Shown piece after piece: positions 2,541 to 52,840 of a DNA stretch of 64,000 bases; position 1 is the stretch's first letter, and each line of letters starts with the position of its first letter. A model generated the notes under the pieces. That model was not told where the DNA came from. It saw only the letters and a list, made by a program, of their open reading frames with translations, and did no database searches. The translations under genes were made by a program, and so were the position numbers. The DNA comes from Chitinophagaceae bacterium (lineage in GTDB: Bacteria; Bacteroidota; Bacteroidia; Chitinophagales; Chitinophagaceae). The stretch spans positions 1 to 64,000 of the forward strand of contig CANGNA010000018.1 of NCBI GenBank assembly GCA_947455215.1, read 5' to 3'.

Positions 2541-2945
2541 TTAGTTAACAGTAATGGTCAGGCTAACGTTATTTTTCAGGCCATCTTTATTCACTACCGT
2601 AAAGGTGTACTTCTCAGTGCCGGCCTGGTTGCGGGTAGTGATGGTCACATCCTTAGAGTAGCTGTCGCCATTGGAGCCGGTAAGTGTTTCTGATGTAAAG
2701 CTGGTTGACGTGCCGCCATCGTATGAGCGGGATCCGTCGAAGGATACCAATACATCTTTGTCCTCCGCTTTAGAGGCCGTAATGCCTATAACCACAGTGG
2801 TATCCCTGCTCAGGGTAGTAGATGTTGATATATAAGCAGCCGTTGTTTTAAAAGCTATGTTAGGCAACTTGCCTTCATCTTTTTCGCATGAGGCAAGGAA
2901 TACAAGAGCGATAAGTATGGCAAATATTGAAGTAAGTTTTTTCAT
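2541..2945 (-). CDS. Small lipoprotein with an Ig-like domain
   Basis: A 134-residue protein with a clear lipoprotein signal (MKKLTSIFAILIALVFLASC; Cys20). The mature part is a single beta-rich region with alternating Thr/Ser and hydrophobic residues ending VSLTITVN, like a bacterial Ig-like or PKD-type domain. It lies 85 bases downstream of the TonB receptor/membrane protein pair on the same strand, so it could be the third gene of that unit. I do not recognise a specific family. A structural or binding role at the outer membrane is inference only. Confidence 0.65.
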   Translation of the reverse strand: MKKLTSIFAILIALVFLASCEKDEGKLPNIAFKTTAAYISTSTTLSRDTTVVIGITASKAEDKDVLVSFDGSRSYDGGTSTSFTSETLTGSNGDSYSKDVTITTRNQAGTEKYTFTVVNKDGLKNNVSLTITVN

Positions 2946-3029
2946 TGTCTTTTTGATTTTGTTAAGTATAATAATACAGCAGGTACACAGGGGTGCACTG
3001 CAATTGAATTCAGATAACGGTAGTATAAC

Positions 3030-3530
3030 TTAACAAGATCGGGGAGGGGGCAATGAGATGTTGCCATGGTAACAGCAGGTAGAGGGGCTATAACGCTCTG
3101 TATGCACCAGTATGTAAGTAGGTACATATTGCAGAGACCATTGTATAGGCTGTTCGTGGTAAAGGAACACGAATGGCAATATAGACGGGTTGCTATTGCG
3201 GTTCTTGCGCGGGTCCGGGAGAAGGTGGGTAAGGCTGGTCTCCTCATCGTCGGCAAGGAGGTAGGCAACCCGCTGGCCATGTTCATTGGTTACCAGTGCC
3301 ACATCATACAGTGCTCCACCGCGTTGCAGCTCAGCGCCTGCGGTCGGATGCTCTGCGGGCGATAGTGCTACGCGCTGGAAGTTGCTAAGGTCGCCCAGGT
3401 TGTTGAGGATGCGCTGGTGCTGCACCTGGTGTATGACCATGATACCCACAGACAAAAGGAAAGGCAGCAACACCTGTAGCAATACAGATGCTGATATGAC
3501 CGTTGCCGCCTTTTTGCCGGTAGTTACCAT
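3030..3530 (-). CDS. Uncharacterized membrane-anchored protein coupled to a TonB receptor
   Basis: A 166-residue protein with one strong membrane segment near the N-terminus (VISASVLLQVLLPFLLSVGI, residues 11-30), then a soluble region with a two-Cys motif (STCCYHGN) and the ending SLPPPRSC. Its ATG overlaps the stop of the upstream receptor gene by seven bases (ATGGTAA), which indicates translational coupling. I do not recognise the family. The Cys and His residues near the end (CCYH) could bind metal, which would fit a metal-uptake receptor partner, but this is inference. Confidence 0.65.
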   Translation of the reverse strand: MVTTGKKAATVISASVLLQVLLPFLLSVGIMVIHQVQHQRILNNLGDLSNFQRVALSPAEHPTAGAELQRGGALYDVALVTNEHGQRVAYLLADDEETSLTHLLPDPRKNRNSNPSILPFVFLYHEQPIQWSLQYVPTYILVHTERYSPSTCCYHGNISLPPPRSC

Positions 3531-5568: not shown

Positions 5569-6897
5569 TTAATGCTCAATAATGATATTCCCGGCGGGTA
5601 CCCCGGCAATATAGAGCAGGTAAAGCCCGTTGGGGAGGGTTGTATTGATGGTTGTTGTTTTATTGGGCTGTACGTAAGTTGACCAGACGACCCGCCCGTT
5701 GAGGTCTGTGATGGTAAGTGGCATGGGCTCGTTAGCATTAGCCAGAAATTCGAGTTGAAATATACCATTACAAGGGGATGGGTATGTTTTGACAGCAGAT
5801 GGCTTTTCTGTGGCTGCTATGTTTACTGTGTGCTGATATGTTTTGCGAATGCGGTAGTTTAGCTGATCTATGATATAGATATTCCCATGTTGGTCTACAG
5901 CAACACCTGGCGTAAACGAAAATGTTGCAGCAGTTGCTGGTCCTCCATCCCCTCCAAATCCAGATATGCCAGGAATGCCTGCTACTCGATGTATTATACC
6001 GTCATTTCCGATTTTTCTAATTACATTTTGTCCAATTTCACTTATATAAATGTCTCCGCTTTGAGATATGCAAATTCCCTCCGACGAAGTTTGTGCGGCT
6101 GTCGCAGGCCCGTCATCACCCGAATATCCCGCAGAACCGTTTCCGGAAAATGTGGTAATAATTCCTGATAAGTCTACTTTACGGACCTGACCTACTGTAG
6201 TGAAATATACATTGCCAAATGTATCTATATCCAATTTCAGTGGCTGATCAATCTTTGCTGCTGTAGCTGGGCCATTATCCCCTGTGTAACCAGTAATGCC
6301 TGTTCCGGCTATCGTAGTAACAATTCCGGAAGTATCTATTTTCCTAATGCAATTATTGCCATAGTCAGCAAAATATACATTCCCCCATTTATCACATGCT
6401 GCATCTCTGGGTATGTGAAGAGTAGCATCTGTAGCCGGTCCATTGTCACCTGTATATCCAACCCCGCCATTACCAGCAATGGTTGTAATTATGCCTGCTA
6501 CACTCACCTTGCGTATTCGTTGATTGGCGAAGTCTGCAAAATATAAATTGCCCTTTTTATCAAGTCCAATTCCCGTAACATAACTCAATTGTGCATTAGT
6601 TGCTGGACCATTATCACCACTATAGCCACTGCTTCCCTCTACACCTACATAAGTAGTAATTATTCCGTATTTGTCTATTCTGCGTATACAACTAGATATT
6701 TCATCAGCAATATATACAGTGCCACTATCATCTACTGCGACATCTCTTGGGTGTTTCAAAGCAGCATCCGTAGCCGGCCCATTATCTCCGCTATACCCAA
6801 AAGTGCCATTGCCTGCTATGGTGGTAATATATTGCGCTTGCCCGGTGGTAGTACCCAGGAGGAAAAGAGACAGTAAGAGCAGGTAAGCGTATCTCAT
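5569..6897 (-). CDS. NHL-repeat secreted protein with T9SS C-terminal sorting domain
   Basis: I chose ATG 6897, which gives a signal peptide (MRYAYLLLLSLFLLGTTTGQ) and 442 residues; the open frame extends to 7092, but that part is not protein-like. The mature protein contains about six NHL-type propeller repeats marked by AGNGxxGxxGDNGPAT and IRKI motifs. A T9SS type A sorting domain follows: TYPSPCNGIFQLEF, ITDLNGRVV and NGLYLLYI. Family knowledge predicts export through the outer membrane and attachment to the cell surface or release. A paralogue is at 45518-47356. The upstream region carries conserved TGCCG blocks also found before the gene at 53173. Confidence 0.88.
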   Translation of the reverse strand: MRYAYLLLLSLFLLGTTTGQAQYITTIAGNGTFGYSGDNGPATDAALKHPRDVAVDDSGTVYIADEISSCIRRIDKYGIITTYVGVEGSSGYSGDNGPATNAQLSYVTGIGLDKKGNLYFADFANQRIRKVSVAGIITTIAGNGGVGYTGDNGPATDATLHIPRDAACDKWGNVYFADYGNNCIRKIDTSGIVTTIAGTGITGYTGDNGPATAAKIDQPLKLDIDTFGNVYFTTVGQVRKVDLSGIITTFSGNGSAGYSGDDGPATAAQTSSEGICISQSGDIYISEIGQNVIRKIGNDGIIHRVAGIPGISGFGGDGGPATAATFSFTPGVAVDQHGNIYIIDQLNYRIRKTYQHTVNIAATEKPSAVKTYPSPCNGIFQLEFLANANEPMPLTITDLNGRVVWSTYVQPNKTTTINTTLPNGLYLLYIAGVPAGNIIIEH

Positions 6898-6933
6898 AGT
6901 ATTGTTATATAAAGATACCGGGTGGTAGTGGCA

Positions 6934-7073
6934 AAACGAAAACTGCCGATGTAAAAAAATGAACGTTGCCGGCAATTTTACTTTAGGTAAGCGCGGTAAT
7001 GTATTGGTAAATAGAAAAGGTATGTAAAAGTGTAATTTGGCGTTTTCTGCCGATGTGGCATTTTTGCCGATGG
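6934..7073 (-). promoter_or_regulatory. Three-block TGCCG upstream module (copy 1)
   Basis: Block A (7044-7073) matches the reverse complement of 53023-53052 at 28 of 30 bases and includes TGCCGATGTGGCA. Block B (6967-6987) contains TGCCGGCA followed by AATTTTACTTTAGG. Block C (6934-6951) contains AAAACTGCCGAT. The A-B gap is about 56 bases in both copies, and the orientation toward the downstream gene is the same. It is a candidate leader or regulator-binding array for the NHL gene. Confidence 0.5.
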
Positions 7074-7266
7074 TTTTTGCGAGGGGTTTCATAGTAGGGG
7101 TTGGGGTTTATTTGTGAAAGAACTGGTACCGACAGCTACGCTCCGATGGTGTAAAGGTCGGAAGAGTTTTTGGGATGAGCAAATTTGGAGGTTGTTTGTA
7201 TGCGGGGTATGTAAGCGAGATAGCATTGGCCGGGGACGAAGCGGGGCGAGTGTGGTGCGTTGTTTT

Positions 7267-7316
7267 CGCAAGCGAGACGCTTGCAATGGCTAAGGACGAA
7301 GCGGGACGCTTCGACC
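7267..7316 (-). repeat. Double-palindrome dispersed repeat R2, copy 1
   Basis: Two adjacent palindromes, CGCAAGCGAGACGCTTGC and GAAGCGGGACGCTTC, are separated by a short spacer. The reverse complement matches 52728-52775 nearly base for base. Relative to the downstream secreted-protein gene, both copies have the same orientation. Confidence 0.7.
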
Positions 7317-7427
7317 AGTACGTGCGCAAGGTGGTGTGTTAGGTTGTTGTAGTGGTCGGTTGTCTACTTCGTGTGGTGCTACGACGGCTGTGAAACCTGA
7401 GGCAGCCATATAGTATTAAGCGGTATA

Positions 7428-7459
7428 TTTGGCATATACTGGCGTAGGCTATACCTTTG
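7428..7459 (+). promoter_or_regulatory. Bacteroidota sigma-A type promoter
   Basis: TTTG (7428-7431), a 20-base spacer and TACCTTTG (7452-7459) match the Bacteroidota consensus TTTG-N19..21-TAnnTTTG exactly. A start near 7466 would give a leader of about 50 bases before the methyltransferase ATG at 7516. Confidence 0.65.
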
Positions 7460-7515
7460 CAGGCGCCCGTACGGATGGTTAGTGCGGGATAGAAAAGTTA
7501 TCTGAATAAATAAAT

Positions 7516-8337
7516 ATGATGCAACCGGAACAGTTCTTTGAACTGATGCTTAAAGAATTGGAAGTGCACACGGAGATGCAGCCTTACTATAAATTTTTGG
7601 GTAAGCAGTCGTCGTGGCATTTTCGCAGGAACTATTTCCTGCAGCGGTTGCGGTATATACAGAACGAGGTGGCCAATAACCGCGAACTGCGCATATGGGA
7701 TTGCGGCAGCGGCTATGGTACCACTTGCCTGTTCCTGGCCATGAACGGCATTAAGACCCACGGCACTACGCTTGAGTTTTATTACGACATGGTACAGAAG
7801 CGCAAAGAGTATTGGAGCCAGTACGGCGACACATCTCTGTTTACCTGCAGCTACGAGAATCTTTTTGATAGTCCGCCGCCGGCCAATAGTTACGACCTTA
7901 TAATAGTACAGGATACGCTGCACCACCTGGAGCCGATCAATGATGCGTTGAAAATATTCAACAATTGCCTGGGCAAGGGCGGGCGTGTACTATCGATAGA
8001 GGAGAATGGCAGCAACATCATACAGCGGGCCAAATTATATAAGTACCGGGGCAATAAGCGCATCATCAGCATATGGGATGAGAAGCTGCAAAAGGATATA
8101 CTGATAGGTAACGAAAACATAAGGAGCCTGGCTAACTGGACGAAGTTGTTCCGGGCCAATGGTTTTGATATACCGGCACGATCGGTGCAGTATGTGCGGT
8201 ATTACCTGCCGGTACACTACCGTTTTTCTGATCCGCAGGTGCTACTGGAAAAGGAAAACAAGATACAGGCCGGCGGCAACAGCTTTAGACGGGAATATTT
8301 TTTCTTTGGCCTGAACTTTGTGGCCCAAAAGCAATAA
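7516..8337 (+). CDS. Class I SAM-dependent methyltransferase
   Basis: A 273-residue protein with a Rossmann-type methyltransferase core. Motif I is WDCGSGYGTTC (about residues 60-70), the acidic strand-2 end is GTTLEFY, motif IV is DLIIVQDTLHHLEP, and post-motif GKGGRVLSIEENG follows. The DTLHHLEP signature is common in small-molecule or lipid/quinone-type methyltransferases (Methyltransf_11/25 class). A C-terminal extension of about 90 residues (RSVQYVRYYLPVHYRF) may set substrate choice. The substrate is unknown. It is followed after 27 bases by a secreted protein gene on the same strand. Confidence 0.85.
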   Translation: MMQPEQFFELMLKELEVHTEMQPYYKFLGKQSSWHFRRNYFLQRLRYIQNEVANNRELRIWDCGSGYGTTCLFLAMNGIKTHGTTLEFYYDMVQKRKEYWSQYGDTSLFTCSYENLFDSPPPANSYDLIIVQDTLHHLEPINDALKIFNNCLGKGGRVLSIEENGSNIIQRAKLYKYRGNKRIISIWDEKLQKDILIGNENIRSLANWTKLFRANGFDIPARSVQYVRYYLPVHYRFSDPQVLLEKENKIQAGGNSFRREYFFFGLNFVAQKQ

Positions 8338-50016: not shown

Positions 50017-50254
50017 CAGTACAGATCTGAAAGATCGCGGTATGCCGGATAACACCTCCCTCTCCTTTGGAGAAGGCCGGGGTGAGGCTGAATGACAGTA
50101 CAGGTCCGAAAGACACAGTTTTTCGGACAACACCTCCCTCTCCCCTGGAGAGGGTCGGGGTGAGGCTAAATAACCGTACTGGTCTGAAAGACGAAAGTGT
50201 AGAATAACATCTCCCTCTCCTTTGGAGAGAACCGGGGTGAGGCTCAATAACCGT
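50017..50254 (+). repeat. Three tandem units of about 78 bases
   Basis: Units begin at 50017, 50096 and 50175 (periods 79, 79 and then 77-80 to the following repeat). Each contains a GGTCTGAAAGAC-like hairpin, a variable 16-base spacer, and CTCTCC-TTT-GGAGAG with GGGGTGAGGCT. The array runs directly into the R1 copy at 50255, which opens with the same GTACAGGTCTGAAAGACC. It lies between divergent pepT and marC. Confidence 0.75.
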
Positions 50255-50352
50255 ACAGGTCTGAAAGACCTGAAGATAACAGCCCGGGGTGCAGCCCCGG
50301 GTAAACAAAACAAACGCAGGTAAGCTCTGTAAGAGCGACAGATACCTGCCCG
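50255..50352 (-). repeat. Three-hairpin dispersed repeat R1, copy 3 (inverted)
   Basis: Read on the minus strand it has GCTCTTACAGAGC, a CCCGGGGCTGCACCCCGGG stem, and GGTCTTTCAGACC, in the same order as 9141-9232. It ends 20 bases before the marC ATG at 50373. Confidence 0.75.
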
Positions 50353-50372: not shown

Positions 50373-50969
50373 ATGGCAAACTTCTGGCTCGATAAGACCG
50401 ATTATAAAGAGATCGTCACCGTTACATTTACCCTTTTTGCAGTAATAGACGTGCTGGGCTCCCTGCCCGTCATCATATCTATAAAAAGGAAAATGGGCGA
50501 TATCAACGCCGCCCTGGCCACATTGGTATCGGGCGGACTGATGCTGCTCTTCTTCTTGGTGGGCGAGCAGATGCTGCAATTCATGGGGCTGGATATCCAC
50601 TCGTTTGCCATAGCAGGTAGCATCGTCATCTTTATCCTGGGAATGGAAATGGTGCTGGGGCTCGACATTTTTAAGCACGACGATAATATGAAGGCGAGCA
50701 CCCTGGTACCAGTGGCCTTCCCGCTGATAGCCGGCTCCGGAACCCTTACAACTGTAATGTCGCTAAAAGCGGCCTACGAGGCCTACAACATCCTCATCGC
50801 GATTCTCATCAACCTGATAGTAGTATATATCACCCTCCGCTCCGTCAACATCATAGAGCGCGCCCTCGGCCCATCCGGCGTCGCCGTCATCCGCAAATTC
50901 TTTGGTGTGATACTATTGGCTATTGCCGTGAAGATTTTTAGAGGGAATTTGGGGGTGATGCATGGGTAG
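50373..50969 (+). CDS. MarC (UPF0056) family membrane protein
   Basis: ATG 50373 gives 198 residues; earlier in-frame codons lie inside repeat R1. There are about six membrane helices: FTLFAVIDVLGSLPVIISI, AALATLVSGGLMLLFFLVGE, AGSIVIFILGMEMVLGL, PLIAGSGTLTTVMS, LIAILINLIVVYITLR and KFFGVILLAIAVKIF. MarC proteins share the fold of LysE-type exporters, but their substrate is unknown, and the old link to multiple antibiotic resistance has been withdrawn. It stands downstream of the repeat array and upstream of the AT-rich gene. Confidence 0.88.
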   Translation: MANFWLDKTDYKEIVTVTFTLFAVIDVLGSLPVIISIKRKMGDINAALATLVSGGLMLLFFLVGEQMLQFMGLDIHSFAIAGSIVIFILGMEMVLGLDIFKHDDNMKASTLVPVAFPLIAGSGTLTTVMSLKAAYEAYNILIAILINLIVVYITLRSVNIIERALGPSGVAVIRKFFGVILLAIAVKIFRGNLGVMHG

Positions 50970-51000: not shown

Positions 51001-52188
51001 ATGAAAGTGCTATTAGCCTACGACAAGGATACAAACCTAAAACAAGATTTAATCGCTGCGTTTTTGAATGAACATTGTAGTTATCTGAATTTTGTGACAG
51101 CTGATAAGAGTATAATTTTCAATTCGAATATAATTAGAAAACCATCCTCGTTCAACGTTCTTTCTCAACAAATAGGTACGGATCTGTCAAATTTTGATAG
51201 AGTATTCTGTTTTACGAACAAGCAATATAGTGACAACTATTTCTTGCACGAGTATAATTGCATATCGATATTTTCATTTTGGGGATGGCCTTATCTGACC
51301 AATCTTTCAGTTAATAATGGGGTGATATATTCTATTATTTATTATTTCGCATTGGAGTTGGATAAAACAGATTTTAGACACAATGATACAACCGGTTGCA
51401 TTTATGATTTTTTATGGTCAAAGGATGGCGTTGACGATGGTATGAGACGAGCTAGTTTCTGTCCAGGCTGTTTAGCTCGGGTTACTGGAAATATATCGAC
51501 AGAAGACGAAATAAATCTATTGAATGATTTGAAAATTTTAATGAATTTGTTATCAAACTCGTCAAAATGGAATCAAGATATATTGTCTGATTTTATTAAG
51601 CCAGAAAGTAAAATAGCGAAGCGAAAGGTAAAAATCAAAGGTGAAGTACATTTAGTTATCGCTTCGCCTGGAGACACCGAATTAGAAAGATCTCATTTAT
51701 TAGATAGATTGGAAATACAATTTCGAAGAGGTAATCATGAAAGCCACTGTGGAAAACGGTTAATTGTTCATGGATGGGAACATCTAGCATCACAAGAGGG
51801 ATACCCTCAAGATGTGATAAATAAAAAGATTATTGAGAAAATGGATATCGTTGTTGCAGTTTTTAAGCATAAGCTAGGAACTCCTACAATAAATGCAAAA
51901 ACCGGCAAAAAGCGTGCTTTATCTGGAACTGCGGAAGAACTTCTGCAAGCTTTAAATATGGCAAATAAAGACCGTCCTTTAGGTATGGCGTATTTTTATT
52001 CAAAGGCTCCAGTAATTTCTATTGACTCAAAAGATTTAGCGACCATAAAAGGCAATTGGGATGATTTAGAGAAATTTAAGAAGCGTATACAAACTAAAAT
52101 GATTTATAAGCCATATAACGAAGCAAGTGATTTGTTACAAACTGTGATCAATGATATCGAAAGCAATATCATTGATAATTTCGAATAA
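51001..52188 (+). CDS. AT-rich two-domain protein: His/Cys N-terminal domain plus DUF4062/TIR-like C-terminal domain
   Basis: A 395-residue protein not matching a family I can name with certainty. Residues 1-165 form an alpha/beta domain with H127, TTGC133 and C154-P-G-C157, a His/Cys arrangement that looks like a structural metal site and recalls metzincin-type endings. Residues 216-340 resemble DUF4062/TIR-like domains: VIASPGDTELER, EGYPQDVINKKII, MDIVVAVFKHKLGTPT and SGTAEELLQA. Base composition is far lower in GC than neighbours (line 51541-51600 has 15 G/C of 60), suggesting transfer. DUF4062/TIR-like folds occur in defence and STAND signalling. Cytoplasmic; defence role is inference. 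Confidence 0.7.
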   Translation: MKVLLAYDKDTNLKQDLIAAFLNEHCSYLNFVTADKSIIFNSNIIRKPSSFNVLSQQIGTDLSNFDRVFCFTNKQYSDNYFLHEYNCISIFSFWGWPYLTNLSVNNGVIYSIIYYFALELDKTDFRHNDTTGCIYDFLWSKDGVDDGMRRASFCPGCLARVTGNISTEDEINLLNDLKILMNLLSNSSKWNQDILSDFIKPESKIAKRKVKIKGEVHLVIASPGDTELERSHLLDRLEIQFRRGNHESHCGKRLIVHGWEHLASQEGYPQDVINKKIIEKMDIVVAVFKHKLGTPTINAKTGKKRALSGTAEELLQALNMANKDRPLGMAYFYSKAPVISIDSKDLATIKGNWDDLEKFKKRIQTKMIYKPYNEASDLLQTVINDIESNIIDNFE

Positions 52189-52190
52189 AT

Positions 52191-52253
52191 TTCCCGTCCT
52201 CGGCGTGTCTCTCGCATAGCCCAGTGCGCAGCCGAGGACTCGCCGATATCGGG
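52191..52253 (+). repeat. Direct repeat R3, copy 1
   Basis: TTCCCGTCCTCGGC, GCATAGCCCAGTGCGC, GCCGAGGACT and CCGATATCGGG occur in order just after the AT-rich gene. The same order recurs at 52780-52840 in the same direction, on the other side of cspA. Confidence 0.7.
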
Positions 52254-52775: not shown

Positions 52776-52779
52776 AAAA

Positions 52780-52840
52780 TTCCCGTCCTCGGCAAGCCAC
52801 TAGCATAGCCAGTGCGCCGCCGGGCACTTTCCGATATTGG
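52780..52840 (+). repeat. Direct repeat R3, copy 2
   Basis: TTCCCGTCCTCGGC, AGCATAGCCAGTGCGC, CCGGGCACT and CCGATATTGG recur in the order seen at 52191-52253. The two copies lie about 590 bases apart and bracket the cold-shock gene. Confidence 0.7.

Follow-up and report, generated by a model that had tools for sequence, protein, structure and literature searches.

DUF4062 domains have only recently been shown to be defence NADases of a TIR-like kind, with KpSwz and TEP1 as the precedents (PMC13174449). In Swarozyc (KpSwz; PDB entries 10wc, 11cq and 11cv), phage defence is achieved by E97-dependent depletion of NAD+, and a C-terminal winged helix-turn-helix (winged-HTH) domain, the known bacterial sensor to be paired with a DUF4062 executioner, senses the phage portal (PMC13174449). 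Here we describe a gene that lies directly downstream of marC in the first 64,000 nucleotides (forward strand; referred to throughout as the window) of contig CANGNA010000018.1, from a member of the Chitinophagaceae (assembly GCA_947455215.1). Its product resembles KpSwz in being encoded by a single gene of patchy distribution and in having a DUF4062 domain with a catalytic-glutamate type of motif (SGTxEE in the window protein, SFTE.F in KpSwz), but whereas KpSwz has its DUF4062 domain at the N-terminus, followed by the winged-HTH domain that grips the portal, the window protein carries DUF4062 at its C-terminal end and has as its sole other domain an unrelated N-terminal pseudo-archaemetzincin. 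Because the two auxiliary domains are unrelated, the trigger of the window protein probably differs from that of KpSwz. We put the probability at about two in three that the window gene is a single-gene abortive-infection sensor-effector, which joins a pseudo-archaemetzincin sensor to a DUF4062 NADase executioner.

The assignment of the C-terminal half as a divergent DUF4062 domain is well supported by sequence comparison. Residues 211-395 match PADLOC model PDC-S60 at 5e-17 over its first 170 positions (5-168 of the 906-position model), plasmid proteins annotated as DUF4062 match the same region, and the DUF4062 domains of two relatives (L002 and L003; L-numbers denote loci of relatives) are 42-50% identical to it. 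Ten residues (D225, E229, W259, Q270, K291, G293, S308, G309, E312 and E313) are invariant in an alignment of 10 DUF4062 relatives that takes in STAND-like proteins of 567-909 aa. The peptides ASPGDTELER, GYPQDVINKKI, MDIVVAVFKHKLGTPT and SGTAEELLQ, which a first-pass annotation made from the DNA alone had described as standing in the order expected for DUF4062/TIR-like domains, do occur in that order and fall on conserved columns of these relatives. A profile built from the 10 relatives also finds KpSwz chain 10wc_A at an E value of 0.0016, with a collinear alignment over profile positions 24-169 (146 positions) in which the family SGT-E-E-E lies over S-F-T-E-K-A of KpSwz (within SFTEKAF). 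The deposited 10wc construct is described as KpSwz 15-C, E97A, and the A in this motif is most simply the mutated E97, judging from the numbering; since E313 aligns with that residue it would occupy the catalytic position, and the window protein is predicted to hydrolyse NAD+ through it. The fold of DUF4062 is TIR-like in solved structures (PMC13174449), which bears out the TIR-type fold foreseen for this half of the protein. The STAND context that had also been suggested is not supported, as no profile match to a NACHT/AAA NTPase domain is found in the 395 residues.

PDC-S60 is a PADLOC candidate system composed of DUF4062 and a large C-terminal region; the DUF4062 domains are homologous, but the window protein matches only the N-terminal fifth of the model and has neither the NTPase-like nor the C-terminal region. 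Canonical TIR effectors (Thoeris ThsB, TIR_2) belong to the same fold superfamily, and relatives that carry the N-terminal module include some with a true TIR_2 domain, but the window protein itself has no match to TIR_2, SEFIR or ThsB_TIR (Pfam at E up to 5; PADLOC). Two matches to Cmr1, one in Pfam (Cmr1_C, residues 215-300, 51643-51900; E 4e-4, 20.8 versus 26 bits, and thus sub-threshold) and one in the PDB (4l6u; 0.033), overlap the DUF4062 motifs and are not taken as homology, and the designed TIM barrels that head the PDB profile searches are repeat artefacts. The L002 and L003 genes are short (about 180 aa and 296 aa) and adjoin tyrosine-recombinase-like genes, and that of L002 is without any auxiliary domain.

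Residues 1-200 are unnamed by Pfam, NCBIfam, PADLOC and PHROGs. The spacing H-x5-C-x~20-CxxC pointed to the zinc-finger end of the archaemetzincins (M54), whose motif is HExxHxxGx3Cx4CxMx17CxxC (PMC4681839), and this idea was recorded before any fold had been predicted. When the N-terminal family, with the window protein left out, was compared by hhalign with 11 archaemetzincins of related genomes, an E value of 0.0014 and a score of 28.6 were obtained, against scores of at most 17.3 for 30 column-shuffled alignments; H127 was aligned with the catalytic motif's third His, and C133, C154 and C157 with the final three Cys residues of the zinc finger. One member, L020, alone matches Pfam Peptidase_M54 at 6.7e-4, under the cut-off. 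An AlphaFold2 model of a representative, L064, computed from an alignment of 46 rows that includes the window protein, has a mean predicted local distance difference test score (pLDDT) of 92.6, and in a Foldseek search of the PDB its top four chains are all archaemetzincins (2x7m, 3lmc, 4axq and 3zvs being the structures compared), the best being 2x7m at 3.8e-4. VIA-align gives Z scores of 10.8 (2x7m; root-mean-square deviation 3.7 over 164 residues), 10.1 (3lmc) and 10.0 (4axq); other metzincins (snake-venom and ADAM enzymes) score 9.5 and below, matches that we attribute to the shared metzincin fold and not to closer kinship. None of the 95 family members examined has an HExxH ahead of the conserved His, and neither does the window protein; 92 of the 95 keep the CxxC. 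The window protein retains three of the four zinc-finger Cys residues (C133, C154, C157) together with the invariant H127, the first Cys having been replaced. Because the archaemetzincin fold is present, HExxH is lacking and the zinc-finger ligands are mostly retained, the identification of the N-terminal domain as a pseudo-archaemetzincin, with its fold and most of its zinc site kept, is well supported; the window protein likely has a His-Cys3 metal site (H127, C133, C154, C157), and catalysis has presumably been lost. In a viral fold library the L064 model also matches an uncharacterised protein of Edafosvirus, a giant virus (A0A3G4ZUW2, E 9.9e-4).

Scanning genome and viral contigs with the window protein itself yields no relatives. 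The first relative of the N-terminal domain, L007, came from a protein search (two-sequence BLASTP E 7e-9), and the two-row profile that it made possible found members across the Bacteroidota, the family being invisible before that profile. The genome-contig scan recovers 56 loci in about 10 phyla (Bacteroidota, Pseudomonadota, Spirochaetota, Planctomycetota, Lentisphaerota, Bacillota, Acidobacteriota, Chlorobiota, Armatimonadota and others), with a low and patchy prevalence of 31 in 395 genomes of the class and 8 in 266 of the family. H127, G132, C133, D136, C154 and C157 are almost invariant across the 12 to 46 members aligned. In an independent test, the window protein is still picked out from among all 355 window open reading frames (ORFs) by profiles that exclude it, at 9.1e-16 for the whole family, 1.7e-8 for the membrane type only and 1e-9 for the vWA type only, the next-best ORFs scoring 0.42, 0.54 and 0.045 respectively. 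Phage records contain no match to the window protein or to a membrane-type representative. The tree of the domain has long branches, that of the window protein among them, and does not place the window protein securely, so it supports no claim on the order in which effectors were swapped. Several members are interrupted by stops (L015, L016, L041, L163) or have a split ORF (L115), which suggests that these genes decay frequently.

In most members the partner of this N-terminal domain within the ORF is a C-terminal hydrophobic (membrane) helix, but the same module is found with a C-terminal TIR (L018; TIR_2 4.7e-28), an N-terminal TIR (L050; 3.2e-21), an N-terminal Mrr nuclease (L020; Mrr_cat 3.7e-11) and a C-terminal patatin phospholipase (L164, 571-2109 on the minus strand; 1.7e-25), the last of these with an MksE-type (Wadjet/Mks-like) condensin gene alongside. 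Domains of all these types (TIR, patatin, nuclease, membrane helix) are standard executioners of abortive infection in bacteria, and a conserved module exchanged between them is most simply read as the sensor or switch. The neighbours of L050 are ThsB-like TIR, patatin, QueC and TPR-S genes, whereas L019 lies with genes for a SLATT membrane effector and a ThsB-like TIR and with paired PLD and SNF2 helicase genes. At locus L169 (6384-10877) a compact four-gene run consists of ThsB-like TIR, patatin, TIR plus pseudo-archaemetzincin, and TPR-S/MAP3K_TRAF_bd genes, past which lie ThsB-like, QueC and TIR genes, and the run looks like a composite defence operon. Membrane-type locus L090 (7989-9173, with 6733-7887) has MORN-like C-terminal repeats and an adjoining DUF3800 gene.

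A large Bacteroidota branch of the family, with proteins of about 380 aa, has a C-terminal extension that partly matches the PADLOC CARF5 model and a vWA gene alongside. In L160 the family gene (1318-2451) has a vWA gene and a MoxR-type AAA gene as neighbours (185-1075 and 2859-3515), and L021, L022, L023, L025-L048 and L161 are vWA-branch loci like it. These are reminiscent of the vWA-MoxR ternary conflict systems, of which the passages available of PMC7159879 describe no archaemetzincin-like third component, and the branch is possibly a vWA-MoxR ternary system, not reported so far, in which one component is a pseudo-archaemetzincin. The window gene, unlike these loci, has no vWA or MoxR partner.

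The first-pass annotation had taken the region around H127, C133, C154 and C157 as a sensor or metal-binding module. That much stands, in that the four residues are almost invariant and the domain is a metal-site module that relatives combine with one effector or another, as would be expected of a sensor, but its identity as a dead archaemetzincin had not been foreseen. A role in defence, as proposed there, agrees with what is published on DUF4062 (PMC13174449) and with the partner domains and neighbours of relatives, and for the window protein it is one that we infer. Under the sensor-effector interpretation the N-terminal pseudo-peptidase would bind, without cutting, a ligand that comes from the phage or is induced by infection, and that may be a peptide or protein in the former substrate cleft; recognition would cause copies of the protein to oligomerise and so assemble their C-terminal TIR-like domains; the DUF4062 NADase, with E313 as its catalytic residue, would then deplete NAD+, a step proposed because of the KpSwz and TEP1 precedent (PMC13174449); and the loss of NAD+ would halt the infected cell before phage release, at the cost of that cell. 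A broader proposition, which we regard as evenly balanced, is that pseudo-archaemetzincins make up a superfamily of infection sensors, so far undescribed, that occurs in about ten bacterial phyla and combines with one killing domain or another: a membrane helix, a TIR domain at either end, an Mrr nuclease, a patatin phospholipase or a DUF4062 NADase, with a vWA-linked branch in addition. The window gene would then be its DUF4062 version.

The DUF4062 half is thus a member of a newly characterised kind of NADase, and the module family would be the more novel part. The text of PMC13174449 makes no mention of zinc or metallopeptidase-like partners of DUF4062, and in the literature searched, which did not extend to subscription journals and some supplements, we found nothing on archaemetzincins or dead metallopeptidases in defence, no report of a pairing of DUF4062 with a pseudo-archaemetzincin or of the use of this module with other effectors, and no paper on the front end, which also has no Pfam model. 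An unrelated, protease-derived front end would show that the DUF4062 executioner pairs with sensors other than the portal-reading winged-HTH, and if it is a true sensor it offers both a handle for finding defence genes outside defence islands and a way into how a dead protease recognises infection.

There are several points that weigh against a sensor-effector gene of this type. PADLOC models reveal no defence island around the gene in the window, most membrane-type relatives stand alone with no defence genes seen beside them, and the neighbour evidence for the fused relatives has no background rate. The Pfam DUF4062 model (PF13271) gives an E value of only 0.04, and the isolated domain scores 14.6 bits against a curated cut-off of 24.7; because the close relative L003 scores just 24.0 bits, also under the cut-off, we judge this model to be narrow for the window domain and its kin. 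L064 is 22% identical to the window domain, whose own fold is therefore assigned by homology, and a single-sequence AlphaFold model of the whole window protein, with a pLDDT of 32, is unusable. The fusion of pseudo-archaemetzincin and DUF4062 is found only in the window gene among the genomes searched, and the gene may be a chance fusion or a decaying one. A non-functional fusion left by horizontal transfer would account for that single occurrence, for the long branch of the window protein in the tree and for the broken relatives noted above; we nonetheless think it quite improbable, as the frame is open over 395 codons with the metal ligands and the SGTxEE motif all kept.

The other alternatives concern what the N-terminal domain does and what the protein is for. 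The ThsB-like TIR genes adjoining L050 and L019, with the patatin beside one and the SLATT effector gene beside the other, are what would be expected if the domain were not the infection sensor but an oligomerisation or regulatory scaffold, or a receptor of a small signal such as a TIR-made ADP-ribose derivative, and if the protein served as effector in a two-part system of the Thoeris type. This seems doubtful, since the window yields nothing ThsB-like above 1e-5, relatives are mostly lone genes that lack a partner of this kind, and the domain has the fold of peptidases, enzymes that bind peptides. A guard-type arrangement, in which the dead peptidase resembles what a phage protein targets and the NADase is released once the phage protein binds it, draws on the proposal, in the passages available of PMC7159879, that prokaryotic conflict systems use inactive enzyme domains as decoys or as dominant-negative regulators, and genuine archaemetzincins are present in 9 of 41 genus- and family-mate genomes; however, no archaemetzincin match was found in the genome that carries the gene, no phage counterpart is known, and the sequence does not separate a decoy from ligand sensing, and we consider a decoy unlikely. 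Finally, relatives are found on mobilisable plasmids and some DUF4062 genes adjoin recombinases, as might be the case for a mobile-element addiction module in which a constitutively harmful NADase is restrained by an unlinked partner. The window gene is not coupled to any small ORF of antitoxin type, however, and a large conserved fused domain in a lone-gene layout is unlike toxin-antitoxin pairs, making an addiction toxin very improbable. The sensor-effector interpretation is thus the one we favour.

The setting of the gene suggests that it was acquired. It is present once in its genome (4.2 Mb, 118 contigs), and its G+C content of 33.6% compares with a mean of 48.7% (standard deviation 3.4, minimum 39.7%; z = -4.4) for the 46 other window ORFs of at least 150 aa, in agreement with the earlier description of it as foreign-looking and sharply AT-rich; the segment 51541-51600 contains exactly the 15 G/C reported. 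The pepT-marC pair directly upstream is conserved in 10 close relatives (nine of the same genus and one other of the family), but in the eight genus-mates whose sequence extends 1.4 kb or more past marC the gene is missing downstream of it. Among 296 family genomes searched, 10 have any match to the window protein, and only its own genome has a match covering the whole length. Because it is absent in genus-mates, AT-rich and without a whole-length match in the family, the gene is an accessory one, probably imported. Profile searches, which included a check of the possibility raised at the outset that the whole protein belongs to a housekeeping family, found no such family covering it. Window matches to the PADLOC models mad2, mad8, SspH, ZorB and TPR are generic and are taken as widespread protein families. 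The positions of the features are given in Table 1.

Table 1. Features of the gene and of its immediate surroundings (window coordinates).
Feature	Position	Strand	Basis or remark
Whole gene, 395 aa: pseudo-archaemetzincin domain, linker and DUF4062 (TIR-like) domain	51001..52188	+	ORF with ATG start
N-terminal archaemetzincin-like domain without HExxH (residues about 1-165)	51001..51495	+	Family profile E 9.1e-16; fold of representative
H127 codon	51379..51381	+	Invariant; aligns with third His of HExxHxxGxxH of archaemetzincins
C133 codon	51397..51399	+	Invariant; aligns with second zinc-finger Cys of archaemetzincins
C154 and C157 codons (CxxC)	51460..51471	+	Align with last two zinc-finger Cys; CxxC in 92/95 members
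Linker, residues 166-210, predicted helical	51496..51630	+	No profile match; helices only in low-confidence single-sequence model
C-terminal DUF4062/TIR-like domain (residues 211-395)	51631..52185	+	PDC-S60 5e-17; L002/L003; KpSwz
E312-E313 codons; E313 the predicted NADase catalytic glutamate	51934..51939	+	SGTxEE invariant in 10 sequences
marC, conserved upstream neighbour (context)	50373..50969	+	pepT-marC pair also present in genus-mates, window gene missing downstream
Dispersed ~66-bp repeat element (context, outside the system)	52187..52252	+	21 matches in genome
Second local copy of ~66-bp element, beyond cold-shock gene (context)	52776..52840	+	Same dispersed element

Direct repeats next to the gene had been put forward as possible marks of an insertion. 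The ~66-bp repeats do adjoin its 3′ end, but the two copies flank the cold-shock gene and not the window gene, no partner copy is present at the 5′ end of the window ORF, and the element is dispersed, with 21 copies in the genome, so that we reject them as insertion marks. As they do not bracket the gene, they are no evidence of its mode of arrival. Upstream of marC, at 50046-50269, a 69-nt direct repeat occurs in three imperfect copies, 86% identical and at a spacing of 77-78 nt; they have an internal palindrome and resemble dispersed palindromic elements in look.
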